DNA of 32,180 nt, from positions 1 to 32,180 of the IMG/VR virus record IMGVR_UViG_3300017751_000106. One strand, given 5' to 3'. Origin of the DNA: a virus. The position numbers and the translations under genes are program-made. Positions 6,222 through 30,862 of the stretch are shown one piece after another. The notes under the pieces were generated by a model. The model was not told where the DNA came from. It was given only the letters and a program-made list of their open reading frames with translations, and made no database searches. Within the stretch, counting starts at the first letter, position 1; each line of letters starts with the position of its first letter.

Positions 6222-6240
6222 CAAAAAAAAACAAAACATT

Positions 6241-11707: not shown

Positions 11708-11720
11708 CCCCCACAACAAT

Positions 11721-11906: not shown

Positions 11907-11917
11907 CACTTATAGCC

Positions 11918-12250: not shown

Positions 12251-12432
12251 CTGAGAAAGGGAGAAAATACTACAACCAAAAGACAGGTAGTAATCTTAAG
12301 AGACCGCAACCAAAGGGAGGCCCACGGAAGCGGTCTTTTTGTGCGCGTATGTCAGGTGTTAAAGGACCGATGAAGGATTCTAAAGGTCGTTCCACCAGGA
12401 AAGCCCTAGCACTCAGAAGGTGGAAATGTTAA
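12187..12432 (+). CDS. Conserved basic phage protein with FCARMSGVKGP motif
   Basis: The 81-residue product is highly basic and has a conserved look I recall from many phages: MPSKRKGLSLRKEHKSEKGGLTEKGRKYYN, KTGSNLKRPQP, GGPRKRSFCARMSGVKGPMKDSKGR, ending LALRRWKC. The function of this family is unknown to me. Lys/Arg richness and location before the capsid gene suggest a DNA-associated virion protein (inference). ATG 12187 overlaps the o-spanin stop. Its coding sequence contains a terminator-like hairpin. Confidence 0.75.
   Translation: MPSKRKGLSLRKEHKSEKGGLTEKGRKYYNQKTGSNLKRPQPKGGPRKRSFCARMSGVKGPMKDSKGRSTRKALALRRWKC
12298..12340 (+). terminator. Terminator-like hairpin inside a coding gene
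   Basis: AGACCGC (12301-12307) pairs with GCGGTCT (12330-12336). The stem extends by one G-T and two A-T pairs to 10 bp and is followed by a T run (12336-12340). The loop is 22 nt, longer than usual. It lies within the conserved KRPQP to KRSF codons of the 81-residue gene, so it may be coincidental. It could attenuate transcription before the capsid gene. Confidence 0.3.
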
Positions 12433-12451
12433 TTAATAATAAATAAAAATT

Positions 12452-12691
12452 ATGTGTATGTCTAGCAATCAATCTCGGTTCGGTCTTCTTGGAGGACAAA
12501 TGGCCGAAAGTAAAAAAGTAAAACGTCTTGTTACAAAGAATTTCAATAATACCGCCATCGGTCAGGTAGTTAAGAATAATAAAAATAAGTCATCGCCTAA
12601 ACGACCTGTAAACGCGCCAGCTTCAACGAAACCCACTGATCCAGTACCTCTACGTATTAGCGGACGAAAAGGGTTTAACCTGAATTACTAA
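12452..12691 (+). CDS. Second small MC-type virion protein, gp6.7-like
   Basis: The 79-residue product begins MCMSSNQSRFGLLGGQ, has a Lys/Asn-rich middle and ends PLRISGRKGFNLNY. T7 gp6.7 combines an MCFS start with an internal SGRKGL motif; this protein has both an MCMS start and SGRKGF, so it is the closer gp6.7 relative of the two in this genome. The protein at 7593 shares the MCMS start and an NY end. It is probably a small virion or portal-vertex protein. The leader is A/T-only (aataataaataaaaatt) with no Shine-Dalgarno motif. Confidence 0.6.
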   Translation: MCMSSNQSRFGLLGGQMAESKKVKRLVTKNFNNTAIGQVVKNNKNKSSPKRPVNAPASTKPTDPVPLRISGRKGFNLNY

Positions 12692-12745
12692 AATGAGCGA
12701 TGCCGAGACTTTTTATAATTAACAACAATAACAACAACACCCAAA

Positions 12746-12856
12746 ATGCCCAAAGTAGGAAAGAAGAAATACCCGTATACCGCCGAAGGAAAGCAAGCCG
12801 CAAAGAAGGCAGCCAAACGCTCTGGCTTGAAGCTTAAGAAGACCAAGGGTGGTTGA
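12746..12856 (+). CDS. 36-residue Lys-rich peptide
   Basis: MPKVGKKKYPYTAEGKQAAKK... is 36 residues with about a third Lys and an MPKVGKKKxPYT start that recurs in small phage proteins I have seen next to head genes. Function is unknown; nucleic-acid binding or neutralising packaged DNA is a guess from charge. The leader tttttataattaacaacaataacaacaac resembles the one before the tail-tube A gene (ttttataataacaacaac). No Shine-Dalgarno motif is visible. Confidence 0.6.
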   Translation: MPKVGKKKYPYTAEGKQAAKKAAKRSGLKLKKTKGG

Positions 12857-12895
12857 AAGTAGTGTTGTTATTTAATTCAAGTTCTGAATCACACA

Positions 12896-13066
12896 ATGGC
12901 CAAGATATGCCCCAAAGGAATCGCTTGGGCTAAACGCACCTTCGACAAGTATCCGAGTGCTTACGCTAACATGGCGGCATCCAAGTATTGCAAAGACCCC
13001 AACTACGGGAAAGGCAAGAAGAAGAAGTCGAAGTTAACAATTAAAAAGAAGAAGAACCGTGGGTGA
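12896..13066 (+). CDS. 56-residue basic protein with YPSAYANMAASKYC motif
   Basis: The product starts MAKICPKGIAWAKRTFDKYPSAYAN and ends in a long Lys tail (GKKKKSKLTIKKKKNRG). Two Cys residues bracket the conserved-looking central motif, but no full zinc site is evident. Similar WAKRTFDxYPSAYAN proteins occur in phages and are uncharacterised. Its end overlaps the next gene by 8 nt. It is part of the basic micro-gene series before the capsid gene, so virion or DNA association is inferred. Confidence 0.65.
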   Translation: MAKICPKGIAWAKRTFDKYPSAYANMAASKYCKDPNYGKGKKKKSKLTIKKKKNRG

Positions 13067-13307
13067 GCTAGCTAAGTGGAGAAACCAGAATTGGGTCCGT
13101 ATTGGAACCGATGGAAAGATCAAAGGCGAATGCGGAACCTCAAAGAACAAAAAGAACCCAGACAGATGTCTTCCATTATCGAAAGCGAGATCCCTAAGCA
13201 TTCCTCAACGTGCTGCGACTGCGAAGAAGAAGAAGCGTGCTGGAGCGAAGGGGAAACAGTTTGTTGCCAACACCCCGACTGCCCGTGTGAAACGGAAGAA
13301 GTCGTAA
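13059..13307 (+). CDS. 82-residue basic protein with KWRNQNWVRIGTDGKIKGECGTSK motif
   Basis: The product begins GELAKWRNQNWVRIGTDGKIKGECG, continues NPDRCLPLSKARSLS and ends in an Ala/Lys tail (TAKKKKRAGAKGKQ...VKRKKS). I recall this W-xx-WV-xIG ... CG-S ... P-C-P layout from a phage family of unknown function. The GTG start at 13059 overlaps the previous gene. From 13166 onward the DNA is also open in the -1 frame into the following gene, giving a long dual-coding stretch. Confidence 0.65.
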   Translation: MGELAKWRNQNWVRIGTDGKIKGECGTSKNKKNPDRCLPLSKARSLSIPQRAATAKKKKRAGAKGKQFVANTPTARVKRKKS

Positions 13308-13528
13308 TTGGTGACATCGTTCAAATAGATTTTTTAGACCACGCGCAAGACAGCGAAGATGGTCCAATTTCATGCACCGTCTATGGTTGTGTTATCGACC
13401 AAGGCGATCATTACATCACAGTCGCTTCGTGGCAAACCCACATAGATGACTTTGAAGATACAACTTTCACCATTGTTACAAGCTGCATTACTAGCTTGGT
13501 GGTGTTAAAACAACAACCGTCATCATAA
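13166..13528 (+). CDS. Hypothetical protein with acidic Cys-rich head and GDIVQIDFLDHA domain
   Basis: The C-terminal 73 residues (GDIVQIDFLDHAQDSEDGP..., TVYGCVIDQGDHYITVASWQTH) look like a genuine beta-rich phage protein of unknown function. No ATG, GTG or TTG exists in frame between 13169 and the start of that domain. The nearest starts are ATG 13166 and GTG 13076, both inside the 82-residue gene. From 13166 the product is 120 residues with an acidic Cys-rich head (TCCDCEEEEACW..., VCCQHPDCPC) that is the -1 frame image of the neighbour's Ala/Lys tail. Alternatives are initiation at ATT 13307 or a -1 frameshift from the 82-residue gene, though no classic slippery site is seen. Confidence 0.5.
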   Translation: MSSIIESEIPKHSSTCCDCEEEEACWSEGETVCCQHPDCPCETEEVVIGDIVQIDFLDHAQDSEDGPISCTVYGCVIDQGDHYITVASWQTHIDDFEDTTFTIVTSCITSLVVLKQQPSS

Positions 13529-13657
13529 CGATAGACTCCGTAACGAGGCCGAAGATGAGACCCACCGAGGTGGACAATCAATAACTCTGAACCCGACCAC
13601 TGGATAAATTTGATTGAGGACACCCCAAACCAAAAACAAAAATAGAAACCATATATT
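13529..13657 (+). other. Non-coding leader of the capsid gene
   Basis: These 129 nt contain no plausible gene. A short hairpin CCAC-CGAG-GTGG lies near 13561-13572. The last 35 nt are very A-rich (accaaaaacaaaaatagaaacc) and lack a Shine-Dalgarno motif, though the capsid protein should be the most abundant product. A late promoter is expected here by analogy with T7 phi10, but I could not find a copy of the ACCCATAATAGG candidate. Confidence 0.5.
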
Positions 13658-14671
13658 ATGGCTAACGGAAATACTACTGCGTCCCGCTTGGGACAAATCA
13701 ACGCGTCCGGCGATGTCGATGCGTTGTTCTTGAAGGTGTTCTCAGGAGAAATCCTGACCACCTTTGAAGAGATGAATGTTATGAAGGGTCTTCACACGAT
13801 CCGCACCATCTCTAACGGAAAGTCTGCTCAGTTCCCTGTAACTGGAATTGCGACTGCTAAATACCACACGGCTGGAGAAAACATTGCTGACGCTGGAAAC
13901 AGCTACCTCAGTTCTGTTAAGCACGCTGAGAAGGTCATCACGATTGATGATGTTCTCCTTGCTTCCACCTTCATCTCTAACATTGATGAGCTTAAGAACC
14001 ATTACGATGTCCGTAGCATTTACGCTAAGGAACTCGGTAAGGCTCTTGCCAAGCGTTTCGATGTTGCGACCATGAAGACTCTCGTTGCTGCTGCTCGTTC
14101 TGCTACCACTATCAGTGGCGGTAAAGCTGGCATCGCTATCGACGGAGGTGAGGCTGCTGACTTCAGTGCTGCTGTCATCCAAGAGAAGCTCTTTGAGGCT
14201 GCTCAGAAGTTGGATGAGAACGACATCCCGAACGATGGACAGCGTTACGCTATCTTGAAGCCTGGTGATTACTACAAACTTCTCCAGTCTGGCGAAGAGG
14301 TAATCAACCGTGACTTCGGTGGTCGTGGTGACGTTGCTACTGGATCGCTTCCAATGGTTGCTGGTCTTCGCATCTTCAAGTCCAACCACCTTGCTGACGT
14401 TGCTGTCGCTGAGGCTTCACAGGACCAAGATGACGATACCTCTAACAACGATGTCTTCGGAGGCAGCGGAACCGGATACAACGGTGACCTCTCCAAGACC
14501 TTCATCATTGGTGGACACCCGTCTGCTGTCGGAACTGTCAAGCTTCTTGACCTTGCGACCGAGAGTGATTACAAGCTTGAGCTTCAAGGAACCCTGTTCG
14601 TTGCTAAGTATGCAATGGGCCACGGTGTTCTTCGCCCTGAAGCTTCGTTTGAAATCAAGGACGCTGATTAA
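13658..14671 (+). CDS. Major capsid protein (T7 gp10A-like, HK97 fold)
   Basis: It forms the icosahedral head. The 337-residue length is close to T7 gp10A (345). Matches to T7 include ALFLKVFSGEILT, TISNGKSAQFPVTG, AGENI, HAEKVITIDDVLLA, NHYDVRSIYAKELG, and near the end SAVGTVKLLDLA and VAKYAMGHGVLRPEA. Codons are skewed to GCT, GTT and CTT, as expected for a highly expressed gene. A strong terminator follows. A T7-style -1 frameshifted minor capsid form is not possible at the end of the gene because the -1 frame has a TGA at 14665-14667. Confidence 0.97.
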   Translation: MANGNTTASRLGQINASGDVDALFLKVFSGEILTTFEEMNVMKGLHTIRTISNGKSAQFPVTGIATAKYHTAGENIADAGNSYLSSVKHAEKVITIDDVLLASTFISNIDELKNHYDVRSIYAKELGKALAKRFDVATMKTLVAAARSATTISGGKAGIAIDGGEAADFSAAVIQEKLFEAAQKLDENDIPNDGQRYAILKPGDYYKLLQSGEEVINRDFGGRGDVATGSLPMVAGLRIFKSNHLADVAVAEASQDQDDDTSNNDVFGGSGTGYNGDLSKTFIIGGHPSAVGTVKLLDLATESDYKLELQGTLFVAKYAMGHGVLRPEASFEIKDAD

Positions 14672-15363: not shown

Positions 15364-18177
15364 ATGGCTAACATCACCACATCCGTCCCCAACCTGATTC
15401 AAGGAGTAAGCCAACAGTCTCCTCGGGTCAGGATTCCTGGTCAATGCGAGGATCAACTTAATGCTCTTCCTACGATCACCAAGGGACTCACCAAGCGTCC
15501 ACCAGCGCGGCTTATCAAGAAGCTGACCGATGCGAACGTCTTTAACAAAGGCGACATGATTCACTTCATCGAGCGCAGTGCGACCGAACGGTATGTGGTT
15601 GTTATTGAACACAGAAGCCAAAGCGACCGACAAGGTGTTCTTAGGGCTTTCAATGTGGACACAGGAGCGGAGGCAACGATTGAGGGTGTTACTGGTGGTT
15701 ATAACATCAATAACAATTACCTCCAACTGAAAGCAACGGATGACACTCTTTTCCCTGCTTCAGACTCCCACAAGCTGCTTAAGGCTCGCACCCTTGGAGA
15801 CAGCACGTTCATCCTTAACACCACCAAGACTGTCGCCAAAGGCACGGAGAAGTCCGAAGCTCTCGACAAGTCACGCGCATTGGTGTTCATCAAGCAAGGC
15901 GACTATGGTAAGAAGTATGGTCTTAAGTTCCGTGAAGTGGGGAGTTTCGGTGGAACGGGGGCGACCTTTAGTGTTACTTGGGAAATTCACGAAGTACACG
16001 GAAGTAGTAGAGTCGGGTATCGGATTGAATATCGGATTGCGTCCATTACGTTGGTTAACGGAGGATCAGGTTACAACGTAAACGACAATCCCACATTAGA
16101 TTTTGAAGGTGTTCCTTGGAGGTCTCGACCTGAGATTGTCACAACGCTAACACTAGCAGACGATACCAATGAAGACAGCGGTGTGATTACAGCCGTTAAA
16201 TTACTTTACAAAGGAAGAACCAGAGAGATCGCCCGAGGGAAAGACTCCAGTGGTATTCCGACTTCTTACCCTACTACTGTTAGCTCGTCTGGTCCTTACA
16301 AAGAGGTCTCTATCGTGACTCATGTGTCTAATGACGGGACTGAGAAAGCTGCTGATTCCAATAACATCGCGGAGGAACTTTTCAAAGCTCTTAACAACAC
16401 TGCTCCTGATACAGCAATAGCACCCACTGCTGATAGAGTAACCAACGCAGCTATAACCGACGCTTACACAAGCACCTTCAAGGACGGATCAGTCATCATC
16501 CAACGCAATGACGGAAGGGACTTCTATGTGGAAGCCTTCGACGGTCTCAACGGATCTGGATTAGGACTCGTCCATAAAGAGGTGGATGCTCTCAGTGACC
16601 TTCCTGTTCGCGCACCTGATGGACTCCGTGTGGCAGTCCGAGGTGACTCTGATGCTAACGAGGATGACTACTACCTTAGATTTGAGAGCAACGATGGACA
16701 AGCATTTGGAGAAGGTGGATGGGTTGAAGACGTAGGCCCAGACCTTGAAGTCGCCTTTGACGCTAACACCCTTCCTTTACAGCTAGTCAACACTGCGCCT
16801 AACACTTTCACACTCAACACTACCTCATGGGGAAGACGCGAAGCTGGTGACGATGAAACCAACCCGTTCCCCTCCTTTGTCGGTAAGACAATGAACAACA
16901 TGGTCTTCTTCAAGAACCGCTTTGGGTTCATCTTCCAGGATATCATCGTGCTGTCTGAAGCTGCTGAACTATTCAACTTCTTTAGGACCACCGTAAGGAC
17001 TCTTCTGGACACCGCTCCGATTGACATAACATCTGCCACCGCTAACGTGACTGACCTCCGTAGCAGTATTGCATTCCAAGAGAATTTGTTATTGTTTGGT
17101 AACCGTGGTCAGTTCGTCTTGAAGGGCGACCCGTTGACCAACGACACGGTAACACTCAACGCTATCACGAACTACAACTCGGACACCACCGCAGACCCGC
17201 TTGCAGTAGGATCGTATGTTTACTTTCCGTATGAGCGTGGAGAGTTCCTTGGAGTCCAAGAGTATAGCCTTAACGCCACCACGGATGTCTATGACTCCGA
17301 TGAGATCACCACACAGATCCCTGCGTATATCCCTAAAGGGGATGTGTTATTTGCTGCTGGGACATCATCAGAAGAACTCTTGGCGTTCGCTACAGGAGGC
17401 AAGGACATCTACCTTTATAAATACTTTTTTAATGGACGAGAGAAAGTCCTGAGTTCATGGGGCAAGCTAACGATGTCATTCGATGTCATTGGGATGCACT
17501 TCATGAAGAGTTCGTTGTTCTGTGTGTGCGACAAGGCCGGACAGTCAGTGATCTCTGAGGTTAAGTTTGAAGAGCTACGCTTGGAGGATGACACCACAGG
17601 AGGCTTTACGATTCACCTTGATCTTCTCAAGAAGCACACCTTCACGCAGAGTGTTGTTACTGACGCAGTGGACATCACCATTGACCTCGGGTTTGTCCCA
17701 GAGAGTGGAGATGTAGTTGAGGTGTATGACTTGGATGGAAGGAAACTGAACATTGTTTCAATTAACAACAACACCGCCACCATCCAGGGCTTCTACAAGA
17801 CCTGCTTCTCTGGTCTTAAATACAACATGGAATGCACCTTGAGTGAGCCTGTGTTCAAGCAAGGGAACCCTCCGACATCCTCGGGCCTCGCTCGGTTGAT
17901 CCTTAGGAATGGCACGTTGTTCTTTTCGGATGCTTCAGCGTTCCAGCTTGAGGTAACACCACGCGCCCGTGACAAGAGAGTCTATTCGTATAGTCCCTTA
18001 AACATCAACGTAGATGCGCTGGGGTCACGAGCTTCCGAAGAAGGTAAGTTTAGGTTTTCCATCTATACAGCAGCACCTGAGTCTGTTATTAAGATTGTAA
18101 ATTCAAGTGCCTTTACCGCCAACTTCCAGTCCTGTGAATACGAAGCCAACGTCCACACCCGTTCAACTAGAATATAA
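15364..18177 (+). CDS. Tail tubular protein B (T7 gp12-like nozzle)
   Basis: It forms the hexameric tail nozzle. The start TSVPNLIQGVSQQSPRVRIPGQCEDQLNALP is the diagnostic N-terminus of the family, followed by KGLTKRPPARLI and, mid-protein, PSFVGKTMNNMVFFKNRFGFI with DIIVLSEAAELFNFF, the beta-propeller core. At 937 residues it is longer than T7 gp12 (794). The extra length appears to sit in the segment before the NNMVFFKNRF box (Thr/Ser/Gly-rich beta stretches around residues 200-400). It overlaps the next gene by 44-71 nt. Confidence 0.96.
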   Translation: MANITTSVPNLIQGVSQQSPRVRIPGQCEDQLNALPTITKGLTKRPPARLIKKLTDANVFNKGDMIHFIERSATERYVVVIEHRSQSDRQGVLRAFNVDTGAEATIEGVTGGYNINNNYLQLKATDDTLFPASDSHKLLKARTLGDSTFILNTTKTVAKGTEKSEALDKSRALVFIKQGDYGKKYGLKFREVGSFGGTGATFSVTWEIHEVHGSSRVGYRIEYRIASITLVNGGSGYNVNDNPTLDFEGVPWRSRPEIVTTLTLADDTNEDSGVITAVKLLYKGRTREIARGKDSSGIPTSYPTTVSSSGPYKEVSIVTHVSNDGTEKAADSNNIAEELFKALNNTAPDTAIAPTADRVTNAAITDAYTSTFKDGSVIIQRNDGRDFYVEAFDGLNGSGLGLVHKEVDALSDLPVRAPDGLRVAVRGDSDANEDDYYLRFESNDGQAFGEGGWVEDVGPDLEVAFDANTLPLQLVNTAPNTFTLNTTSWGRREAGDDETNPFPSFVGKTMNNMVFFKNRFGFIFQDIIVLSEAAELFNFFRTTVRTLLDTAPIDITSATANVTDLRSSIAFQENLLLFGNRGQFVLKGDPLTNDTVTLNAITNYNSDTTADPLAVGSYVYFPYERGEFLGVQEYSLNATTDVYDSDEITTQIPAYIPKGDVLFAAGTSSEELLAFATGGKDIYLYKYFFNGREKVLSSWGKLTMSFDVIGMHFMKSSLFCVCDKAGQSVISEVKFEELRLEDDTTGGFTIHLDLLKKHTFTQSVVTDAVDITIDLGFVPESGDVVEVYDLDGRKLNIVSINNNTATIQGFYKTCFSGLKYNMECTLSEPVFKQGNPPTSSGLARLILRNGTLFFSDASAFQLEVTPRARDKRVYSYSPLNINVDALGSRASEEGKFRFSIYTAAPESVIKIVNSSAFTANFQSCEYEANVHTRSTRI

Positions 18178-18634
18178 AAACGTCTACATCCGTTCTGCAC
18201 TCCCAAGTGACATCGAGGACGTAGGTGATAACATGCGGGAGATTGACAAGCTGGAGTGTTTGTTAAGCTCGGGGACTCGCCCTAGAGACGCTATACGCGC
18301 CGGCCTTGAGACTGATTTCCATACATGGTCTATCTGCTCCAACAAAACCAAGAAGCCTTTGGCTTGCTTCGGGGTCGGCCCGTTGATGCCGAATGAAACC
18401 AATTACATCTGGTTGCTTTGCACGGATGACCTAGTTAAAGAATCAGGTAGTGAGTTTGCCAAAGCGAGCAAAGCGTGGGTTAAGTTTATTGTTAACTACT
18501 ACCAACTTCCTTGTGTCAATGAAGTTCACACCGAGAACACCTTAGCTTTACGCTGGTTGAAATGGTGTGGTGCTACTGTTGAAGAGCCAAAAGAAAACGA
18601 TTTCTCCTTATTTATTATCCACCCCAACGAATAA
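18107..18634 (+). CDS. T7 gp13-like protein with GNAT acetyltransferase-like fold
   Basis: Located exactly where T7 has gp13. The C-terminal part (LVKESGSEFAKASKAWVKFIVNYY, HTENTLALRWLKWCGATVEE) parallels T7 gp13 (VWVGNTSHIRFLKTIGA) and the last helices of GNAT folds. PLMPNETNYIWLLCTDDL is the central strand pair. No acetyl-CoA pyrophosphate loop (RxxGxG) is obvious, so catalysis is doubtful; T7 gp13 is needed for virion assembly. Starts available are GTG 18107 or GTG 18134, both inside the gp12 gene. No ATG is usable before the conserved YIRSALPSDIEDV region. Confidence 0.75.
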   Translation: MPLPPTSSPVNTKPTSTPVQLEYKNVYIRSALPSDIEDVGDNMREIDKLECLLSSGTRPRDAIRAGLETDFHTWSICSNKTKKPLACFGVGPLMPNETNYIWLLCTDDLVKESGSEFAKASKAWVKFIVNYYQLPCVNEVHTENTLALRWLKWCGATVEEPKENDFSLFIIHPNE

Positions 18635-18643
18635 CATCCCTTT

Positions 18644-19147
18644 ATGTGTGAACCTATCTCTATCGGAATAGCGACCGCTGTGGCATCATATGCTGGTCAA
18701 CAAGCTGCTGCTAATGCCCAAGAAAAAGCTCAAGAACGAGCCTCTGCTGCGGAACAAATCAGAGCAGGACGAGCTAATACATCCATAAGAATCCGAGAGG
18801 CACAGGAGAATATTGCAAGATCGCAACGTAAAGAATCTGCTCAACTCCAAACCACGGAGGCTAAAGCACGAGCGCGTCTGGTTGCGTTAACCGAAGCAGG
18901 GGTCGCTGGGATGTCTCTTGACAGGGTGACAGATAAACTCTCTGCCAAAGAAGCTAGATACCGTTTATCCGAGGATCGCCAAAAGGATTTACAAACACAA
19001 CAGTCGGCATTCTCATTGGAGGAAGGCGCACTGCGATCTCACATGAACCAACTCAGAATAAACCAACCAATCAAGCAAGCGAGTCTCTTGGAGTCGGGCT
19101 TGGCGGGAGTAAAAGCTGGGTTGGCTGTAAAACAAATAAACGACTAA
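18644..19147 (+). CDS. Internal virion protein gp14-like
   Basis: It is an ejected core protein thought to form a pore in the outer membrane. The 167-residue product starts MCEPISIGIATAVASYAGQQAAANAQ, like T7 gp14 (MCW...IAISGAQAISGQNAQAK), with a short hydrophobic N-terminal segment, then long helical, Gln/Ala/Glu-rich coiled-coil-like sequence and the VALTEAGVAGMSLDRVTDKL segment that parallels T7 (GESMLEGSSMDRIKRV). T7 gp14 is 196 residues. It is followed 9 nt later by gp15-like. Confidence 0.85.
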   Translation: MCEPISIGIATAVASYAGQQAAANAQEKAQERASAAEQIRAGRANTSIRIREAQENIARSQRKESAQLQTTEAKARARLVALTEAGVAGMSLDRVTDKLSAKEARYRLSEDRQKDLQTQQSAFSLEEGALRSHMNQLRINQPIKQASLLESGLAGVKAGLAVKQIND

Positions 19148-19156
19148 ACATTCACA

Positions 19157-22100
19157 ATGACAGCAGAAGAACTTAAGGAAGCTATATCGCAAAGTCGAAG
19201 AGAGAGGGTCGATGTTAATATCGGAGAGGTATCGCTTCGTCCCACTGCTCAACCTGGAGGACAATACAATGTTCAAGTAGAGACTACACCAAAGCAGAAC
19301 GCTTTGACCGACTTTGCTAACGCACTGAGACAGTTCCCTCAAATCTACGGTCAATACGCTAACATCCAAAAAGAAGCTGGTAAAAAGGAGATTGATGAAC
19401 TTTCACCAGAGGAGTTAGAGGATCGAGCATTGAACGGTGATCAGGACGCAAAAGAAACTGTTCTAAATCGTTTTAAACTCCGAGGCATTAACGAAGCTCT
19501 CTTCAATGCTAGATACGAGACAACGATCTTTCCAAGGCTCGCAGCGCAAGAGCAGGAGTTTAAAGACATGCGACCAGACGCAGTTGAACAATTCTTTCAA
19601 GATGAAAACGGGAACCCAATCGAAGATGAAACAGACATCATTGAGAACCTCAGACTTAAGTATGCGAGTCTTATACCTGATGACGTAATTAACAACCCAA
19701 ACCAGAAGGTGATGTATAACAAACTCCTTCGACAGTTGAATGGGGTCGCGACTAAATCCTATGCGGTGTTGGAACAGAAACGACAGAAGTTTTTGGACGA
19801 GAGTGTGTTCGCTGGTGTTAACCAGAATGCAAACACCTTTAACCTAGGTCTCCCTCAAACCGCTGACGAAGGCAACTCAGAGATCGTCGATGCTGCGGGT
19901 GTTAATATTGTTAATCCCAATAGAACTATGCTTTCCGAGACACAGTCTCAGCACGGATCGATTTATGTCACGCCCGACGTGCGCACCTTCCTTAACCGCG
20001 CAACGGAACCACCAACAATTCAAGGCAACATCAGTGTCTTTTCTCCCCAAAAACCAGGAAGTAAAATTGGTAAAATGGAAGGTGGTTACAAGGCCGCTAG
20101 ACCTGGTGCTGACGGTAAAAACATCGTTAGAACTCTAGAAGACTTCCGAAAGAACCCCGATACAACGGTAGTGACCGTGGCGGGAAACCCTGAATATTAC
20201 GGTAGGAGGTATGTTGTAGACAGTCTTACTTATCAGAACGCAAAAGGGGAACAACACACGCTTACCAACGTCCCTGTCATGGTTCATGATACTGGTGGAC
20301 GTTTTAAGACTACACCGGAAGGACGCTTTGATATTCCCGCAGACCGTGACTTAGGAAACAAGAGCATGGCAGTTAACCACGGACTTCTTGAAGGAATGCA
20401 ATTCATTCGTGATAAAGCAAGTGAAAGCGGAGCGAAGGTTAAAGTGAAGAAAACCGCAAAAGAGGCAACCCAACAACGTATCGCAGACATTGGATTTAAG
20501 CAATCTACGATGGTCAACGGGGTCATTGATGAGATGAACAAAACCTACTTCAGGGGAATTAAACGAATGAACCAGGGCGCACAGGTCACACAAACCCAGC
20601 TACGCAATAGCGTCGAGGAGAACTTCCAAGAGAGACTTTTGGACGAGATCAGACAAGGGAACCATGTCCAAGTTCAAGCGTTTGTTGACGCAGCTAGTGG
20701 CATCGACCCTGATGGGAAAAAGATGGAGCCTTTGAAATTTCAAGGGGAACCGGTCTCTCCGCGTATGTTAACTACCTTGAGTAGAGCTATTGAAGCACAA
20801 GAGGACAAACTTAACAGAGAGGGTCCAAAGCGAACCGCAAAGGAGAAAGCAGCGTTGAAGAACGTTCGCATTGCTTTGAACAAGATCGCCAAGGATTCTC
20901 CTGATGTCTCCCTAGAGGAAACCAATGAGAAAAGAGAACAACTTGTGTTGAAGTTTCAAAAAGAAGTAATTGATAAAGGATACAGTCAAGATGTTCTTGA
21001 TGACTTCAGAACAGATGTAGGAAACTTTCAATCAATGCTCCCCTTGATCGGAGCAGGTAAAAATTGGAATGGCGTATATATGTCACAAGCGTTTATTGAT
21101 GACCTTGACAAACAACTAGACCCAGGTGACAAAATCATAGCAGGACTCAGCGGAGCGGAAGAGTTACTGCGTGTGGCAGAAGTAAACACGGATTTAGACT
21201 TAAGTCCTCTAAAAGAAGACGATGATCTTGCAGCACTCAGCCCGACTAAACGAACACAGTGGAGCAACCTTACAAACATGATGACCGGAACCGCTGCAAC
21301 CTCTGCTGTCAATGAGGCCAGTCGAGAGATGGCAAAGTTATTTCAAGAAGCAGGGGAAGGTGAAGGGGAAAGGGACGTAAACGCAAACCCGTTAGTCCCT
21401 GATCAAGATGAGGACGGGAACCCAATCGAAGATGAAGAAGGTAATCCGAAGATGATCAGAGCTAATGAGTTATACAGGAAACTGTTGCGTAAGCACATGA
21501 CCGCTGCTCTGACAAGAGAAGTCCTAAACACAACGAACCTTAAGAAGGCGATTGATGACGCGAGGCGCATTAAAGGACCAAAAGTCACCGCTGCTGAAGA
21601 CCCCTTAGACCGTCAAGCTGCTGCGCTAGAACTTCAGCAATCGGAGGAAGGAAGAGATGATTTCTTGGACAGCAAAGGAGAACCCACCAGAAGAACACGG
21701 GGAGGGATTTTTGCCGATGAAGACAAAGCGGCTTATCTTGATAGGTTTGTGAAAACCGCTATTGATCCAGAATCTTTAGCATTGATGGAGGCCCAAACTA
21801 AAAGACAAAAGTTAGATTCTTCCTTTTCGTATGTGGCTGGAACTGTTGACTCGTCTTATTTACTTGAGTCAGCGGAAAGAATAGCCAAAGCATATAAACC
21901 TACCACGAAGAAAAACCTCCGAGCGCGTCTGCTAAACCAACTTAAATACACAGGAATACCTATGGAAAAACATAAAGACGGAATGTTAATTGAATCTAAA
22001 GGAAAGAAAGCAAAGGTATCAGCGACTGGCCGTGTGTTTGGGAGAAATATCCCGAGAGTTCAATTAGACATAAATGTAAATGACATCTACTCCAACCCTA

Positions 22101-22285
22101 AGACTGCTAAAACACACGTTTACAACTATCAAGCAATCAGGGACACTAGAGACGGCAACTACGGTTTGCTGACTGAACTTTATAACATCCACTTCAAAGG
22201 AAAAGAAGAGAGCTATCCAAAAAAGACCTTCTTTGCTGACCAAGAGGCACTTGGAAAACAACTTAAATTTAACCCTTCAAAATAA
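19157..22285 (+). CDS. Internal virion protein gp15-like with embedded 3D/MltA-like domain
   Basis: An ejected core protein by position between gp14- and gp16-like genes. At 1042 residues it is longer than T7 gp15 (747). The N-terminal helical part (LTDFANALRQFPQIYGQYANIQKEAGKKE) is family-like. An insert at about residues 292-410 begins ISVFSPQKPGSKIGKMEGGYKAA and contains VTVAGNPEYYGRRY, then VHDTGGRFKTTPEGRFDIPADRD. The DTGG (Asp378) and FDI (Asp392) boxes resemble the DTGGaIKG...riD motif of 3D and MltA-type lytic transglycosylase barrels; the first Asp of 3D is Asn here. This may cut peptidoglycan during DNA entry, the job of the gp16 N-terminus in T7. The rest is helical. An acidic motif QDENGNPIEDE/QDEDGNPIEDE occurs twice (residues 148 and 750). 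Confidence 0.8.
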   Translation: MTAEELKEAISQSRRERVDVNIGEVSLRPTAQPGGQYNVQVETTPKQNALTDFANALRQFPQIYGQYANIQKEAGKKEIDELSPEELEDRALNGDQDAKETVLNRFKLRGINEALFNARYETTIFPRLAAQEQEFKDMRPDAVEQFFQDENGNPIEDETDIIENLRLKYASLIPDDVINNPNQKVMYNKLLRQLNGVATKSYAVLEQKRQKFLDESVFAGVNQNANTFNLGLPQTADEGNSEIVDAAGVNIVNPNRTMLSETQSQHGSIYVTPDVRTFLNRATEPPTIQGNISVFSPQKPGSKIGKMEGGYKAARPGADGKNIVRTLEDFRKNPDTTVVTVAGNPEYYGRRYVVDSLTYQNAKGEQHTLTNVPVMVHDTGGRFKTTPEGRFDIPADRDLGNKSMAVNHGLLEGMQFIRDKASESGAKVKVKKTAKEATQQRIADIGFKQSTMVNGVIDEMNKTYFRGIKRMNQGAQVTQTQLRNSVEENFQERLLDEIRQGNHVQVQAFVDAASGIDPDGKKMEPLKFQGEPVSPRMLTTLSRAIEAQEDKLNREGPKRTAKEKAALKNVRIALNKIAKDSPDVSLEETNEKREQLVLKFQKEVIDKGYSQDVLDDFRTDVGNFQSMLPLIGAGKNWNGVYMSQAFIDDLDKQLDPGDKIIAGLSGAEELLRVAEVNTDLDLSPLKEDDDLAALSPTKRTQWSNLTNMMTGTAATSAVNEASREMAKLFQEAGEGEGERDVNANPLVPDQDEDGNPIEDEEGNPKMIRANELYRKLLRKHMTAALTREVLNTTNLKKAIDDARRIKGPKVTAAEDPLDRQAAALELQQSEEGRDDFLDSKGEPTRRTRGGIFADEDKAAYLDRFVKTAIDPESLALMEAQTKRQKLDSSFSYVAGTVDSSYLLESAERIAKAYKPTTKKNLRARLLNQLKYTGIPMEKHKDGMLIESKGKKAKVSATGRVFGRNIPRVQLDINVNDIYSNPKTAKTHVYNYQAIRDTRDGNYGLLTELYNIHFKGKEESYPKKTFFADQEALGKQLKFNPSK
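19598..19630 (+). repeat. 33-bp internal repeat, copy 1
   Basis: CAAGATGAAAACGGGAACCC... matches 21404-21436 at 31 of 33 positions, in the same reading frame. It encodes QDENGNPIEDE. Near identity even at third codon positions suggests duplication or conversion rather than protein-level convergence. Confidence 0.8.
21404..21436 (+). repeat. 33-bp internal repeat, copy 2
   Basis: This is the second copy of the repeat at 19598-19630, encoding QDEDGNPIEDE, with two differences (GG for AA). Both copies encode acidic D/N/G turns that could bind a metal ion, but no full EF-hand is present. Confidence 0.8.
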
Positions 22286-22291
22286 AATAAC

Positions 22292-25200
22292 ATGAGTCTT
22301 TTTCGACCTAGCATACTCAATGGTAACCCACTTACCTCCTCAAGCGTATTTGGAGGTTCATCTAGTCCCTTCGCTGCAAACGAACCTGATGTATTTGGCA
22401 GAAGAGAATCCACGGATTCCGACTACGATCACCTTGGATTCGACGAGGATGAACAAGAGGATGACTCCGGCTTTGTAGACACCGTTACTGACATTGGTAA
22501 AGGGATAGCGTATGGTGCTTTGGAAGGAGCGCGATCAATGATGGGTTTGTTTGACATTATCACTTTTGATCTTATACCTGATGACTGGCACGATGACCCT
22601 TACCTTGAAGACCTTAAACCACAAGGAACCGGTGGTCACATCGCGTCTGGTCTAACCCAGTTCGCAACTGGTTTTTTTCCAGGGCTTGGTGTTGCCAGTA
22701 TTCTCGGTAAAGCCACTAAAGCCGCAAAGATTTTTGGAGCAAGTGAAAAGACTGCAAAGCTCGCCAAAGGTTTCACGGCTGGGGCGGTTGCTGATTTCGC
22801 AGCTTTTGATGGACATGTGATTCGTCTCAGTAACATCCTTGCTGATGATGCAGGTATTTCCAACGTGGTGACTGAATATCTTAAATCTGACGAAGACGAT
22901 AGCGAGTTAGAAGGACGCATGAAGAACGCTATTGAAGGTGCTGTAGTAGGGGGCGCTATCGTCAGTGTTATCGCCAGTATTAAACACCTTAGGGCACTTA
23001 GTAAAGGGGACGTAGTTAAAGTTGCCCAAACTAAAAAAGAATTAGACCTAGCGCACATTAAAGATGGCAACGCAACCGAAGCAGGACTTAAGGACGAAAA
23101 TCAAATCACAAAGCTAGTCGAAGGACAAGACCCAGAAGATTTAGTTGACACCTCTATACCAAAACCAAGCGCTGCTCCAGATGTCGCCCCGAAAGCCCCT
23201 AAAGGGAAAGGGAAACCTGACGTATCAAAACTTCAAGCACCTATCAGCGGTCCACAATCAATCTACCAGAACAAAAATATTGTTAACCGTCTCAGTGAGG
23301 TAGACTCCTTGGATGAGCTAGAGGATGTTATGGATGAGCTTATTCCTAGTCTCATGGCAACGGAGAAAAGAACAGTCCAAGAGATGGCAGCGCAGATGAT
23401 CCAACTAGATGAGCTTAGGGGTTTTGATTCTTCATCTATTGCTGCTGCTGTGCGTAAAGGTGCGCTCCAAACAGACAAAGATGTTGAACTTATCACCGAG
23501 CTAGCGTTACGCCAGCAAGTCGCCTTCTCCGGTTCCAGACTATCGTTTGACCGTCAGATCGCATTGGCCAAGCAGATTGAAGAAGTCACAGCACAAGCGG
23601 CACGTTCAAGCGACGAAGCCACAGGAGCGCAACTTGACGAGCTAGCATTGTTGTTGGAAGCCGAACAGAAGCGGTTTGCATTCTTCACGTTGAAACAAGC
23701 AACCATCGGAACAGGAGTGTCCGACATCTTCAGAGCAAGACAAGCAAGGAACGTAGGAGACATCCAAGACATCGTAGGTAAACAACGCCTCGAAAGACGA
23801 GCCGAAGAGATGCATGGCGAAGTAAACGCCGCTTATCTTGCAGACGTTGAAGACACAGGTCTTGATGCCTTGAATGAGGTTAGGACTAGAAGAATTGATG
23901 AAACACCGGAAGCTAGTTTAAGCGGAGACAGTCTAAAACAAAGGCAAAACGAACTGGCGCGTCTGGAGAAACAACTAGAGAGCAAAAGAAGACGCTCAGA
24001 GAAGTTATCCGATACTGACCCAGAGGAAATCAAAGGGACACCGGAAGACCCTGGTGCGCCTAAAAAGGAGTCAGCGGTTGTTGAGAAAATTAACAACGAC
24101 ATCCGAGTGGTTAAGGAGCAAATCCAACACCACAACAAAGTATTTAAAGAGGAGCGAGCAATCATTAAACTACGCGAAGAGGAACACTATATCGACACGC
24201 TGAGTGACACAGCTTACGCTGAACGTGTTGCCCAGAGAAAAGCATCCGCTGCGAAACTTAAAAAGATTAAAGAGGAGCTAGACCCTGGTAAAGCAAACTC
24301 AACTGTCAAGCAGTTGCAAGATCTTATTAAGCAGAAAGGAACAAAGAAACTCAACCGTGCTGCTGCCTCTAAGAAACTTAAGGAACTCCGTAACAAGTTG
24401 GGCGCTCTACGACAGTCTTTACTTGAAGGTGATCTCGGCCCTAAAGGTAAGTTAACACCACAAAAGATTAAACAAGACCCCGAACTGAAAGAGATCTATG
24501 AAAAGATCCAGTCAGCCCAACGGATGCTTAAAGAAGAAAGATCCATTCCTAAAGTGTTGGAGGAACTTAAAGCTCTTGGTAGGATGTCCGACGCTGAGTT
24601 TGAAGTAACACAAATCATCAACAAAGCTAACATCACAAGGAAAGGTAAAGGCGACCAAAGCGCATTGAAGAAGCTCCAAGAACTAAAATCCCGATACACG
24701 AAAGCTCGTTCCGCTTCCATTGAGGAATCCGGTAAGTCGCTTAGATCGAAAAAGGCTTATGCATCTTGGAGGGAATCAAGACCTGGAGATATTCAAAAAG
24801 GTATGAAGGACTACGTTGATCGTCTTCTTTTCGCTGCTGACCAAGAGACTCCGCTAGCCGCTTTCCAGAATGTCGATAAGCTCGCTAAAATGAGTAAGTT
24901 AAGAAAGTTTGCTAACCTCGGTTCACGGTGGTTCCAACGTAACCTTATTTCTGGTGCATCCACGTTAACAATAAACGTAGGAATACCTCAAACAATGCGA
25001 GCTTTGCAACGCTTTGAGCAGACCATAGGAGCAGGTATCAGGACAGCAATGGGTGACAAGGAGGCTAAAGCAGTTCTTTCTTCTAGTTTAATTCCGCACT
25101 CTAAGTTGGAAGATGTGGCTTTAGGATTCAAAGCGGGAGTGAAATCAGCCCGAACCAGATCCGATGTTGTTACAGGAGGGGAGGTCGCTTACGGAGAAAA

Positions 25201-27004
25201 CATGGCAGGTGCGCCGTTGAATGCAACTGATCCACGAATCTGGGGTATTGATGAAAATACTTCTGGAGGAAAGGTATACAAATGGATCGACACTTACTTT
25301 AATTGGCCTTTCGCTGCAAACGCTGGAGGTGACGGGTTTAATAAATCTCTTTCAGCCACGGCACGAATGCGTAATGAATTGGATGTTCATGTCAGAAACA
25401 GTAAGGAATGGGCTAATCAATCTCCCGAAGCGCAAAAACTGTGGAAGGAAGAGATGCTGCAAAAAGCCATCGACAAAGACGGAGCCTTGTATAGTGAAAG
25501 TCGCATCTACACTCAACTAGCAAAGAACGCCCGAGAAAACGTCACAGACATGCGGATGAACCCAGCGGCGGTTGATCAAGAGTATGAGCGTCTTATTGGT
25601 GAGTCTAAGGGCAAATTCATTCAAGATCAAAACGTCTTGGATATGATTGGACGAACCAAGGAATACGCTCAAGTGGTAACCGCCACCAATCCCATTAAGA
25701 GTGATGTTATTCAGATGATTAACAAAAAGAGAGCAGACTACCCACCCCTCACCTTGTTGCTTCCGTTTGTTAACACACCTACAAACATCTTGAAGTTTGG
25801 TCTCCAACGGACACCGTTTGGTGCGATGGCTGAGTTAGTCCCACGTTTAGCTGGGCGCGCAGCAGAAAGACGCGCAGCAGTAGCTCAGATGAGTCCGATA
25901 CAACGCGCCGAGTTTACAGGACGCATGGCGACATCCGCAGCAGGGGGAACCGCATTGCTTTACTTTGCGTATCTTAATAAAGAAAAGATCACTGGAAGCG
26001 GTCCAAGGAATGCCGAAGAACGTAGAGCATTGGAATCAACAGGTTGGAAGCCTTACTCGTTCAACCTTGGAACTCTCGATAATCCTACTTACGTCAGCTA
26101 CCAGCGTCTTGACCCTTGGGCAACAATGATTGGTATTGCGGCTGATGTAGCAACGTTTAGCTCAATGAACCCTGACCTTGAAGGTGGATCAATGGAAGCA
26201 GCAGGGGCGTTATTGTTTTCTATCTCCGAAGGAATCACCGATAAGTCTTTCCTGAGAGGTCTTAACAACACGATCAACATGGTTCAACAACCGGAGGTTT
26301 ACTTTGGAAAAGGAGTGCGCGATGTAGTCAGTGGTTTAACTGTCCCGCAGTCTCTAGCACAATTCAAAGACTTTGGAGAAACGAATTCATTGATCCGCGA
26401 ATCCCGAACAGTCGTTGACGCAGTTCTTCGTAAGGTTCCTATTGCTCAAGAAAACATCCCACCTAAGAGAACATTCCTTGGTGAACCTGTCTACAAGCAG
26501 AACCCACTTGGTGTTCTTGGAATCTTCAATCCTATTTATGTTTCCAGCAAGAAGAACGACAGCGTGGACAAAGCAGTCCTAGAGCTAGTCCACGGGTTTG
26601 GTATGCCATCGACTTACTACTTCAATCACAAGGACACGGACATGCGTAACTTCTACAACGAAGAAGGAAGACAAGCATACGACCGTTTACTTGAGTTAAG
26701 TGCTGAAACAACGATTGGTGGTAAGACTTTAAGAGAATCTTTAAAAGGTCTCGTAAACTCACGACAGTTCAAGGCTTACAGCAAGGCAGTCCAGGAAACA
26801 GGAGGAGAAAGCGAACTTATGTCTAAAGACCCGCGCATCAAGTTGATGGGACAAGTCATTAGTAAATACCGTCTAAAAGCCAAGAATCTAGTTATCCGTG
26901 AGTTTCCTGATCTTCTGGACACCTTGAACAACGTGAAGAAGCAACAGAACCAACTTAACCAACAAGCAGTAGACGCATTTAACAACCCAATCCCATCCCT
27001 TTAA
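22292..27004 (+). CDS. Large internal virion protein gp16-like
   Basis: The largest ejected core protein, 1570 residues (T7 gp16 is 1318). It has a Ser/Asp-rich N-terminus, hydrophobic helices near residues 110-145 and 212-230 (EGAVVGGAIVSVIASI), a long charged coiled-coil region at about 480-830 (LARLEKQLESKRRRSEKL, KLKELRNKLGALRQSLL), and a hydrophobic stretch near 1212-1230 followed by KITGSGPRN, STGWKPYSFNLG and YVSYQRLDPWATMIG, a block I recall from gp16-type proteins. No SLT-type transglycosylase (ESGG-like) motif is seen at the N-terminus, unlike T7. It probably spans the cytoplasmic membrane and pulls DNA in. The leader is A/T-rich, aaaataaaataac. Confidence 0.82.
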   Translation: MSLFRPSILNGNPLTSSSVFGGSSSPFAANEPDVFGRRESTDSDYDHLGFDEDEQEDDSGFVDTVTDIGKGIAYGALEGARSMMGLFDIITFDLIPDDWHDDPYLEDLKPQGTGGHIASGLTQFATGFFPGLGVASILGKATKAAKIFGASEKTAKLAKGFTAGAVADFAAFDGHVIRLSNILADDAGISNVVTEYLKSDEDDSELEGRMKNAIEGAVVGGAIVSVIASIKHLRALSKGDVVKVAQTKKELDLAHIKDGNATEAGLKDENQITKLVEGQDPEDLVDTSIPKPSAAPDVAPKAPKGKGKPDVSKLQAPISGPQSIYQNKNIVNRLSEVDSLDELEDVMDELIPSLMATEKRTVQEMAAQMIQLDELRGFDSSSIAAAVRKGALQTDKDVELITELALRQQVAFSGSRLSFDRQIALAKQIEEVTAQAARSSDEATGAQLDELALLLEAEQKRFAFFTLKQATIGTGVSDIFRARQARNVGDIQDIVGKQRLERRAEEMHGEVNAAYLADVEDTGLDALNEVRTRRIDETPEASLSGDSLKQRQNELARLEKQLESKRRRSEKLSDTDPEEIKGTPEDPGAPKKESAVVEKINNDIRVVKEQIQHHNKVFKEERAIIKLREEEHYIDTLSDTAYAERVAQRKASAAKLKKIKEELDPGKANSTVKQLQDLIKQKGTKKLNRAAASKKLKELRNKLGALRQSLLEGDLGPKGKLTPQKIKQDPELKEIYEKIQSAQRMLKEERSIPKVLEELKALGRMSDAEFEVTQIINKANITRKGKGDQSALKKLQELKSRYTKARSASIEESGKSLRSKKAYASWRESRPGDIQKGMKDYVDRLLFAADQETPLAAFQNVDKLAKMSKLRKFANLGSRWFQRNLISGASTLTINVGIPQTMRALQRFEQTIGAGIRTAMGDKEAKAVLSSSLIPHSKLEDVALGFKAGVKSARTRSDVVTGGEVAYGENMAGAPLNATDPRIWGIDENTSGGKVYKWIDTYFNWPFAANAGGDGFNKSLSATARMRNELDVHVRNSKEWANQSPEAQKLWKEEMLQKAIDKDGALYSESRIYTQLAKNARENVTDMRMNPAAVDQEYERLIGESKGKFIQDQNVLDMIGRTKEYAQVVTATNPIKSDVIQMINKKRADYPPLTLLLPFVNTPTNILKFGLQRTPFGAMAELVPRLAGRAAERRAAVAQMSPIQRAEFTGRMATSAAGGTALLYFAYLNKEKITGSGPRNAEERRALESTGWKPYSFNLGTLDNPTYVSYQRLDPWATMIGIAADVATFSSMNPDLEGGSMEAAGALLFSISEGITDKSFLRGLNNTINMVQQPEVYFGKGVRDVVSGLTVPQSLAQFKDFGETNSLIRESRTVVDAVLRKVPIAQENIPPKRTFLGEPVYKQNPLGVLGIFNPIYVSSKKNDSVDKAVLELVHGFGMPSTYYFNHKDTDMRNFYNEEGRQAYDRLLELSAETTIGGKTLRESLKGLVNSRQFKAYSKAVQETGGESELMSKDPRIKLMGQVISKYRLKAKNLVIREFPDLLDTLNNVKKQQNQLNQQAVDAFNNPIPSL

Positions 27005-28491: not shown

Positions 28492-30161
28492 GCGACCTTC
28501 CTAAACAACTCCAAGACTTCCGCAACTTCCTTTGGATGACGTGGAACCACTTGTCACTTCCGGCTCCCACTCCTATCCAATACGAGATAGCCGAGTGGAT
28601 GCAACACGGACCACGCCGAGGTGTTATCCAAGGGTTCCGAGGCGTAGGTAAGTCATGGATTTGTTCAGCCTTCGTCGTTCACCAACTACTCCTTGATCCA
28701 CAGAAGAACATCCTGGTGGTCTCCGCATCCAAGAACCGCGCCGATGACTTCTCGACGTTCACCCTCCGTATCATTCACGAGATGGAGATCCTTGGACACC
28801 TAAAGCCCACCGACAAGCAACGCTTCTCCAAGATCTCCTTTGACGTTGGCCCTGCTCAAGCCTCACACGCACCCAGCGTCAAGTCCCTCGGTATAACATC
28901 CCAGCTTACCGGTAGCCGTGCGGACATCATTGTGGCTGATGACGTAGAGGTTCCCAACAACTCCGCAACCCAATCCATGCGGGACAAGCTCTCGGAACAG
29001 GTCAAGGAGTTTGAAGCTATCCTTAAGCCCAACGATGGCAGTCGCATTCTGTTCCTTGGGACTCCACAGTGCGAGGACAGCATCTACAACAAAATGCTCG
29101 AAAGGGACTACGAGACTCGCATTTGGCCGGCGAAGAAGATCGGTGTGGAGAAGTCCGAGAAGATCTACCAAGGTAACATTGCCGCCTCGTGCATCGATGA
29201 TGACTTCATCGGAAGCCCTACAGAACCCACACGATTCTCCGAGATCGACCTAGCAGAGCGTGAAGCATCCTACGGTAAGTCAGGGTTCGCCATGCAGTTC
29301 ATGCTGGACCCCAAGCTGTCCGACTTGGATCGTTATCCCTTGAAGATCAATGACTTAATCGTCATGGACATTGATGACACTACGGCTCCCGAGAAGCTGG
29401 TCTGGGCACAATCCCCTGAGAACGCTTGGGATGCCACAGTGCCGAACGTAGGGTTCACAGGGGACCGCTTCTTTCGCCCCATGAAGGTCATCGGTGATAA
29501 CATCCCATTCACTGGTAGTGTGTTAGCCATTGACCCATCGGGACGAGGCAAGGACGAAACCTCGTGGGCTGTCGTAAAGATGCTCAACGGGTATCTCTAT
29601 GTGACGGATGCCGGCGGTATGCAAGGGGGATACGATGATACCGTCTTAAAGGTTCTCACGATGAAGGCCAAGATGAACAACGTGAATGTTATTGTTGTCG
29701 AAAGCAACTTCGGTGACGGCATGTTCGTAGAGATCCTAAAGCCCTATCTATCAAAGATTTATCCGGTAACCGTAGAAGAGGTTCGTCATAACATCCAGAA
29801 GGAGAAGCGCATCGTGGACACCCTGGAACCCGTGATGAACCAACACAAGCTGGTCATCGACCCCAAGGTCATTAGGAACGACTACGATACCGCCCAGAAG
29901 TATCCCATCGAGTCCCAACTAAGATACCAGTTGATGTTCCAGATGTCTCGCCTGACACGCGAAAAGGGAGCCTTAACACATGATGACAGGCTTGACGCAC
30001 TATCAATGGGAGTGGCATACTGGGTAGAGCAGATGGCACAGGATGCCGACATTAAGATCTCCGAACGAAAAGAGGAGGACATCCAAAGACAGCTTCAGAA
30101 GTTCACGGATTCCTACTACAAGATCAATGCTAGCAAAGCCCCCTCAACCACATGGATATAA
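28488..30161 (+). CDS. Large terminase subunit, ATPase/nuclease (T7 gp19-like)
   Basis: This is the DNA-packaging motor. The 557 residues (T7 586) show Walker A GFRGVGKS (49-56), Walker B ADIIVADDVEV, SRILFLGTPQ (coupling motif), and a RNase-H-type nuclease domain with LAIDPSGRGKDETSW (Asp349), VVESNFGDGMF and a late HDDRLDALSMGVAYW. All catalytic motifs are intact. T7-type terminases cut concatemers to leave direct terminal repeats. Its C-terminus overlaps the endolysin start by 10 nt. Confidence 0.97.
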   Translation: MSDLPKQLQDFRNFLWMTWNHLSLPAPTPIQYEIAEWMQHGPRRGVIQGFRGVGKSWICSAFVVHQLLLDPQKNILVVSASKNRADDFSTFTLRIIHEMEILGHLKPTDKQRFSKISFDVGPAQASHAPSVKSLGITSQLTGSRADIIVADDVEVPNNSATQSMRDKLSEQVKEFEAILKPNDGSRILFLGTPQCEDSIYNKMLERDYETRIWPAKKIGVEKSEKIYQGNIAASCIDDDFIGSPTEPTRFSEIDLAEREASYGKSGFAMQFMLDPKLSDLDRYPLKINDLIVMDIDDTTAPEKLVWAQSPENAWDATVPNVGFTGDRFFRPMKVIGDNIPFTGSVLAIDPSGRGKDETSWAVVKMLNGYLYVTDAGGMQGGYDDTVLKVLTMKAKMNNVNVIVVESNFGDGMFVEILKPYLSKIYPVTVEEVRHNIQKEKRIVDTLEPVMNQHKLVIDPKVIRNDYDTAQKYPIESQLRYQLMFQMSRLTREKGALTHDDRLDALSMGVAYWVEQMAQDADIKISERKEEDIQRQLQKFTDSYYKINASKAPSTTWI

Positions 30162-30862
30162 AAGACGAACTCAATGAGGCAATCAGGATTCTTGAAGGAT
30201 TACGCTCTAGGATCGATTCTGAGAGCCTTGGGGATAATTCTGGAGGTCACACTAGAGAAATCTCTAAAAACGCACAGGAGCGCATCCTCGTGCTTGCAGT
30301 GGGGCACTCTAGGGAGCTTGATGCGGGTGCAGTGGCTTATGACGGAGAAACCTACGAGTGGCACTACAACACAACGCTCGCCCACAAGATCAAGGAATAC
30401 CTTCCAAGCCACATCAATACAACCATCATCAACCACTACGAAGGGGATTCCTACACCGAGTCAATGCGATGGCTTAAAAGAACCGTTGACCCTCTCAATG
30501 CTGACCTAGTGTGTGAACTCCACTTCAATAGCTTCAGCAACCCCAACGTGAAAGGACACGAGATGCTTCACTGGAACTCCTCATCGAAGGGACGCAATGC
30601 CGCATCCTATATCAACGATGCCATGAACGAGGACTTTCCAGGGAACACCGACCGAGGAGTCAAAAAAGTAACACACGGTGAACGCGGTGCTGGCTTCCTG
30701 CATGGCCCCAAAGCTCCCTGCGTGATCATTGAGCCGTTCTTTGGGTCAAACCCCGATGAATGGGAGGCTTTTGGGGAGACCGAATACACCTTCAACGCCC
30801 TTGCAAAAACCTTAGCACGGGGAATCTCTATAACACTCTCTTACTCAACGCCTAATAAATAA
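30152..30862 (+). CDS. N-acetylmuramoyl-L-alanine amidase endolysin (Amidase_3)
   Basis: It cuts the amide bond between MurNAc and L-Ala in peptidoglycan at lysis. The 236-residue product has an N-terminal ~45-residue helical charged segment, then a zinc amidase domain: LAVGHSREL (His52), YEWHYN (Glu69 is the likely second ligand), VCELHFNSFSN (third ligand His) and CVIIEPFFGSNPDEW (catalytic Glu). RGVKKVTHGERGAGFLHGP is the typical substrate-side loop. T7 uses a different amidase family (gp3.5), encoded early; here the enzyme is late, after the terminase. There is no signal peptide, so holin release is expected. Confidence 0.9.
   Translation: MDIKDELNEAIRILEGLRSRIDSESLGDNSGGHTREISKNAQERILVLAVGHSRELDAGAVAYDGETYEWHYNTTLAHKIKEYLPSHINTTIINHYEGDSYTESMRWLKRTVDPLNADLVCELHFNSFSNPNVKGHEMLHWNSSSKGRNAASYINDAMNEDFPGNTDRGVKKVTHGERGAGFLHGPKAPCVIIEPFFGSNPDEWEAFGETEYTFNALAKTLARGISITLSYSTPNK

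Follow-up and report, generated by a model that had tools for sequence, protein, structure and literature searches.

To build their ejection tunnel, podophages have to breach the peptidoglycan, and the gp16 of the marine T7-like relatives has no recognisable enzyme of this kind. It is already known that tail hubs can carry MltA-like domains and that a gp15 homologue can have lysozyme activity, as does gp35 of the phages K1E and K1-5 (PMC8954989), and K1E gp35 is a precedent for a wall-cutting activity on a gp15 homologue. The purified hub domain of the cyanophage A-1(L) lysed host cells, and point mutants of it were weaker (PMC10966104). In MltA and YuiC, the last of the three motif Asps is the catalytic carboxylate and the middle one binds the N-acetyl group of the -2 sugar (PMC4499186).

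The gp15-like protein of a marine T7-like phage contains a domain at residues 290-427 that is predicted to fold into an MltA/3D-type barwin-like double-psi barrel and most likely is a virion lytic transglycosylase that opens the peptidoglycan at entry, to which reading we assign a probability of roughly 0.8. The domain is a concrete and testable candidate for the wall-opening enzyme. The domain itself, the prediction of its fold, the conserved Asps, the partner domains and the mobility were computed directly.

The source phage and the carrier protein

The window, which is the whole stretch of DNA that was analysed, comprises 32,180 bases of an IMG/VR virus record. Its gene order is T7-like, with genes for RNA polymerase, primase/helicase, DNA polymerase, portal, scaffold, major head protein and tail proteins, followed by gp13/14/15/16-like internal proteins, tail fibre, large terminase, and an Amidase_3 endolysin. 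The relevant genes are:

18107..18634, + strand: gp13-like internal virion protein (phrog_308, E 7.4e-28)
18644..19147, + strand: gp14-like internal virion protein (PF24072, E 1.5e-20)
19157..22285, + strand: gp15-like internal virion (ejection) protein of 1042 aa, the carrier of the domain (open reading frame between the gp14-like and gp16-like genes)
22292..27004, + strand: gp16-like internal virion protein of 1570 aa (phrog_6651 in the C-terminal part)
30152..30862, + strand: separate endolysin, Amidase_3 (PF01520, E 7.4e-21; phrog_435)

The separate endolysin presumably serves lysis. The N-terminal part of the gp15-like protein (residues 15-151) resembles gp15-like proteins without the domain in the IMG/VR contigs L018 and L023. 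Pfam hits to HTH_16 and Methyltransf_2 were set aside as chance. Searches of the gp16-like protein with Pfam (no hit at E 5) and PHROGs revealed neither an SLT domain nor any other wall hydrolase, in agreement with a preliminary description of the sequence, which had seen no transglycosylase motif there.

Conserved residues of the domain

A degenerate DNA pattern for DTGxxFxxxxEGxFD was run on IMG/VR, followed by a profile scan. The pattern matched 15 stretches, and as 14 of them hold the same domain of about 130 residues, the motif is beyond chance; the remaining match, in L231, sits in an 88-aa open reading frame and was discarded as chance. Pattern and profile scan together recovered the domain from 49 IMG/VR virus contigs, and 36 domain homologues form the alignment A8, on which the following assignments are based:

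20024..20437, + strand: predicted MltA/3D-like domain, residues 290-427 (36-member alignment A8, AlphaFold model, MltA/YuiC as best fold matches)
20033..20047, + strand: [S/T]-x-[Y/F]-[S/A]-P strand, residues 293-297 (S293 V F295 S P; column counts)
20078..20080, + strand: E308 of MEGGY, Glu in 36/36 members (column counts)
20171..20212, + strand: VTVAGNPEYYGRRY, residues 339-352, with N344 at the putative place of the first 3D Asp, MltA D261 (column counts; hhalign register)
20288..20290, + strand: D378 of HDTG, putative counterpart of MltA D297 / YuiC D151 (36/36 invariant; hhalign register)
20330..20332, + strand: D392 of RFDI, putative counterpart of the catalytic MltA D308 / YuiC D162 (36/36 invariant; hhalign register)

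All motifs of the preliminary description are present inside the gp15-like protein, among them VHDTGGRFK at residues 376-384 and EGRFDIPADRD at residues 388-398, and the Asps that it named are exactly D378 and D392. The domain that it placed at about residues 292-410 is real, with 290-427 as the better bounds, and of its DTGG core the first three residues hold: D378, T379 and G380 are invariant across the 36 aligned members, like F383 and D392, while the second G is variable (G in 18, S in 15, D in 3). In the N344 column, which lines up with the first Asp of 3D, 11 members have D, 17 have N and 8 have S. A Thr or Ser that orients the catalytic Asp (T99 in MltA) is a criterion of the MltA/3D superfamily, and in the column of S293 all 36 members have either Ser or Thr; judged by sequence, the strand S293-P297 may be the counterpart of MltA T99-G-Y-Y-T-P, with a register that is one residue off. 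Residue 295 (20039-20041) is Phe in the source phage, whereas all 35 remaining members have Tyr, even L001, the nearest neighbour with 97% identity within the domain. F295 may be a substitution that affects function, or it may be a variant that arose in sequencing or assembly.

The close IMG/VR relatives L001, L002, L003, L005, L006 and L240 retain HDTG...FD[IV]P. The domain is much better conserved than the remaining gp15, which also speaks for the transglycosylase: identity to L003 and L240 is 65-70% in the domain and 28-36% in the remainder. In comparison with L001, dN/dS has a value of 0.28 for the domain and 0.47 for the parts outside it.

In a sister clade, comprising Ayaqvirus S45C18 (GenBank AP013544) and IMG/VR contigs such as L013-L016 and L043, the region is still recognisable (VSVAGNP...NVPIKVE...KTTPEGVF) and both Asps are lost, and therefore the domain can persist without them; the copy of this clade is possibly a dead enzyme that is retained for structure. 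The gp15 domains at L008:6856-7254, L013:1920-2318, L014:1926-2324 and L015:6853-7257 lack the two Asps and also the MEGG motif. A Pfam scan of gp15 from L008 and L015 and of the gp16-like protein encoded on the sister contig L041 detected no wall hydrolase.

Such copies without the two Asps are what one would expect if the domain, despite an MltA/3D fold, only bound peptidoglycan or were a structural part of gp15, with the Asps as remnants or ligand-binding residues, and N344 and F295 of the source phage deviate from the MltA/family pattern. Pure structure does not explain, however, why both Asps, the HDTG and the additional Glu are invariant in 36 members across unrelated proteins, and the domains that accompany this one are catalytic wall hydrolases, which is why a merely binding or structural role is considered unlikely and a transglycosylase is preferred.

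Predicted fold and profile comparisons

In sequence libraries the domain is almost invisible. Neither the whole gp15-like protein nor the domain had a match to 3D, MltA or another hydrolase in Pfam and PHROGs, and PDB sequence searches with the single sequence or shallow profiles gave chance matches only. Pfam 3D (PF06725, gathering score 23.8 bits) matched neither the source protein nor other members nor anything in the whole record. Of the three-Asp feature of Pfam 3D (D261, D297 and D308 in MltA; PMC4499186), two are present here at the places N344, D378 and D392. As the three-Asp feature is incomplete and the profile threshold is not reached, the domain is classed as a variant outside PF06725 that would work like MltA/3D. 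The lack of a sequence match for the domain in Pfam, PHROGs or PDB, the Asn at the first of the three 3D Asps, and the Phe in place of the Tyr of 35/36 members count against the transglycosylase.

With 13 sequences of the gp15 family alone, AlphaFold reached a pLDDT of 40, which is too low to use; with the 36 homologues of A8 the pLDDT is 87.6 and the pTM 0.85. The best 12 matches of the latter model in a Foldseek search of the PDB are all MltA-type transglycosylases, with a best E of 4e-4 and probabilities of 0.9-1.0 among the leading 10. A grass-pollen expansin comes next, and a Cel45A ranks further down. In VIA-align, gonococcal MltA (Z 7.4, 97 aligned) and YuiC (Z 7.1, 80 aligned, rmsd 2.4) are ahead of LtgG and E. 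coli MltA, after which come expansins, kiwellins and GH45 enzymes. A Z near 7 is middling by itself and too low to establish a fold match unaided; the case for the MltA-type fold is made by the agreement of all top matches on one family, together with the probabilities from Foldseek and the register of the active site. The best match in BFVD is an uncharacterised protein of an 'uncultured marine virus' with 68% identity, and the next is the Ayaqvirus protein.

The profile comparison points in the same direction. With hhalign, A8 scored about 26-29 against an MltA/3D alignment of 31 MltA C-terminal sequences, and as the probability is 24-46%, depending on the setting, this is support and falls short of proof. 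None of 40 column shuffles reached 26.3 (maximum 18.8), and gp15 blocks outside the domain score 8-12. An alignment of six sequences gave a probability of only 2.5%, with 1/60 shuffles reaching the score. The register pairs N344 with D261, D378 with D297 and D392 with D308 of MltA; the spacings are 34 in comparison to 36 in MltA (N344-D378) and 14 in comparison to 11 (D378-D392). Based on this register, D378 and D392 are regarded as the probable counterparts of MltA D297 and D308 at the level of the superfamily active site, and the model places residues 290-427 as a predicted barwin-like double-psi barrel in the MltA/3D superfamily. The RlpA-like DPBB_1 (PF03330) had no Pfam match, its hhalign score with A8 (13.6) was reached by 5/40 shuffles, and it was weak for the divergent subset. 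The barrel of the 3D/MltA type that had been proposed from the motifs is supported by the AlphaFold model with MltA and YuiC as best matches, by the profile-profile scores and by the peptidoglycan-hydrolase partners, and the predicted fold is not one unrelated to double-psi barrels.

As the fold search also lists expansins and GH45 endoglucanases at lower ranks, and as the cyanophage A-1(L) hub domain was called 'endoglucanase' by DALI, although it lysed host cells (PMC10966104), one may think of a glycosidase or an expansin-like enzyme with the same barrel that acts on another glycan, such as capsule or exopolysaccharide. MltA and YuiC outrank the expansins and GH45 enzymes, the DTG...FD register is the 3D register, and the partners cleave peptides or amides of peptidoglycan, which makes a substrate other than peptidoglycan very improbable. 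The Ayaqvirus sequence KTTPEGVF resembles the 'TPtGtf' strand of YkuD, and the motifs could in principle recall the N-terminal region (T-P-x-G-x-F) of YkuD L,D-transpeptidases and the domain be a fragment of that fold, but hhalign scores with YkuD (PF03734) are at or below those of shuffles and the fold search gives MltA, which leaves practically no room for this idea. The identification as YkuD was also dropped since its catalytic HG...S-x-G-C motif is absent from the aligned domain sequences. The MltA/3D-type transglycosylase therefore remains the preferred reading.

A mobile module in virion proteins

The domain is a mobile module that has been put into differing virion proteins of many unrelated uncultured phages, often beside a peptide- or amide-cleaving wall hydrolase. 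It is internal in the gp15-like proteins of the family of the source phage and also in L266, C-terminal in other ejection proteins (L250-L262, L263 and L269), and present in other virion proteins as well. In L250, the gene of the domain protein has gp13-, gp14- and gp16-like neighbours. When the domain was masked, the source gp15 had no significant similarity to proteins of L250, L263, L269, L247, L264, L265, L272 and L273. Wall hydrolases in the same chain are CHAP (L265), VanY (L247, L269), M15 (L264) and Amidase_2 (L272, L273), and a glycan cutter is the natural complement to such a peptide- or amide-cutting domain. No homologue of the domain was found in one genome_contigs scan, in plasmids, or in 398 Pseudomonadota genomes (two profile searches, run without a positive control).

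Several individual architectures were seen. At L238:1-2217 (- strand) and L253:5891-8611, hubs of the T4 gp5 type combine Gp5_OB and M15 (M15_3 in L238) with the MltA-like domain, which is located where T4 gp5 carries its lysozyme. A virion protein of 1519 aa (L273:5702-10258) has Amidase_2, the MltA-like domain and a weak match to an ADP-ribosyltransferase (ART-PolyVal). In the 62 kb phage L254, the domain is a stand-alone protein of 221 aa (6821-7483), upstream of a large DarB-like antirestriction protein (9008-14374). A divergent group, L274-L288, has the domain near the N-terminus of proteins of about 600-720 aa, with the motifs DTGSAFxGRPDKLD and AGDP that are nearer to the classic three-Asp 3D motif; in L285 of this group, the domain protein adjoins baseplate-wedge and tail-fibre genes.

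The preliminary description had further supposed that the enzyme moved to gp15 from gp16. This is unproven, and Pfam finds no SLT in the gp16-like proteins of HTVC011P and other scanned domain-bearing phages either; a mobile module that gp15 acquired is the more fitting description. In L272, the alignment of a gp16-like protein (8260-13068) to phrog_342, the profile called 'internal virion protein with endolysin domain', does not begin until profile position 262, and shortly upstream of its gene a protein with Amidase_2 and the MltA-like domain is encoded (5810-7381). L272 is an independent candidate for an enzyme relocation and fits relocation better.

Proposed function

After adsorption, gp15 would be expelled and would build a tunnel across the periplasm, and in this way the enzyme would reach the peptidoglycan as a part of gp15. 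The domain would then cut the glycan strands around the tunnel, which would let the tunnel cross the peptidoglycan. Catalysis, bond specificity, timing and ejection are what we infer, and it is in analogy to T7 that gp15 of the source phage may be ejected and that the domain may act at that time. The invariant Glu (E308) could contribute to a two-carboxylate mechanism, as has been considered for YuiC E98.

It is possible, but on the whole doubtful, that all this amounts to an undescribed family of virion lytic transglycosylases with an MltA-like fold and a signature of the invariant MEGG Glu and two Asps, which would have passed as a cassette between the ejection proteins of podophages, hubs of the T4 type and further virion proteins, would have gone largely unseen as it occurs almost only in uncultured phages, and would have become a catalytically dead part of gp15 in Ayaqvirus. 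No description of this mobile MltA-like family was found in the literature searched, Pfam or PHROGs, and the family appears to be undescribed. Because neither Pfam nor PHROGs contains the domain, and because a search of the annotated phage collection matched the degenerate copy of Ayaqvirus and nothing else, a profile built from A8 could give an annotation to many virion proteins of uncultured phages that are now 'hypothetical'.

Comparison with known systems

The closest relatives in structure are the MltA enzymes of E. coli (2ae0/2pi8) and N. gonorrhoeae (2g6g), which share the barwin-like barrel, give the best fold matches, have D297 and D308 aligned to D378 and D392, and space the three motif positions similarly. 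In contrast to MltA, which is a lipoprotein, the phage domain is part of a virion protein, lacks the second domain of about 138 residues, and has N344 in place of D261. YuiC of B. subtilis (3D/Sps domain; 4wlk, 4wjt) is likewise comparable as the minimal catalytic form of the MltA barrel, whereas the phage domain is not detected by PF06725, has two instead of three motif Asps, and has a longer hairpin before the DTG.

Among the contractile and phage systems, the hub-hydrolase CD1368 of diffocin, a contractile bacteriocin (PMC10996793), also has an MltA-like transglycosylase domain beside a peptidoglycan endopeptidase in a tail hub, but it has Gram-positive targets, is not an ejected core protein, and is likened here by domain type and not by sequence. 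The 'endoglucanase' domain of the cyanophage A-1(L) hub gp15 (8kea, PMC10966104) is likewise a barrel in a phage virion and belongs to the same class of fold (Z 5.0 in VIA-align, chain 291-392), although in this case the structural match is weaker and the carrier is a myophage hub and not a podophage ejection protein. Like the N-terminal SLT domain of T7 gp16, the gp15 domain would place a wall-cutting activity on an ejected core protein, but T7 gp16 uses a lysozyme/SLT fold with a catalytic Glu (E37), whereas here an MltA-like barrel with Asps is predicted. The wall-cutting enzyme of the entry machine can thus vary in its fold and in the protein that carries it.
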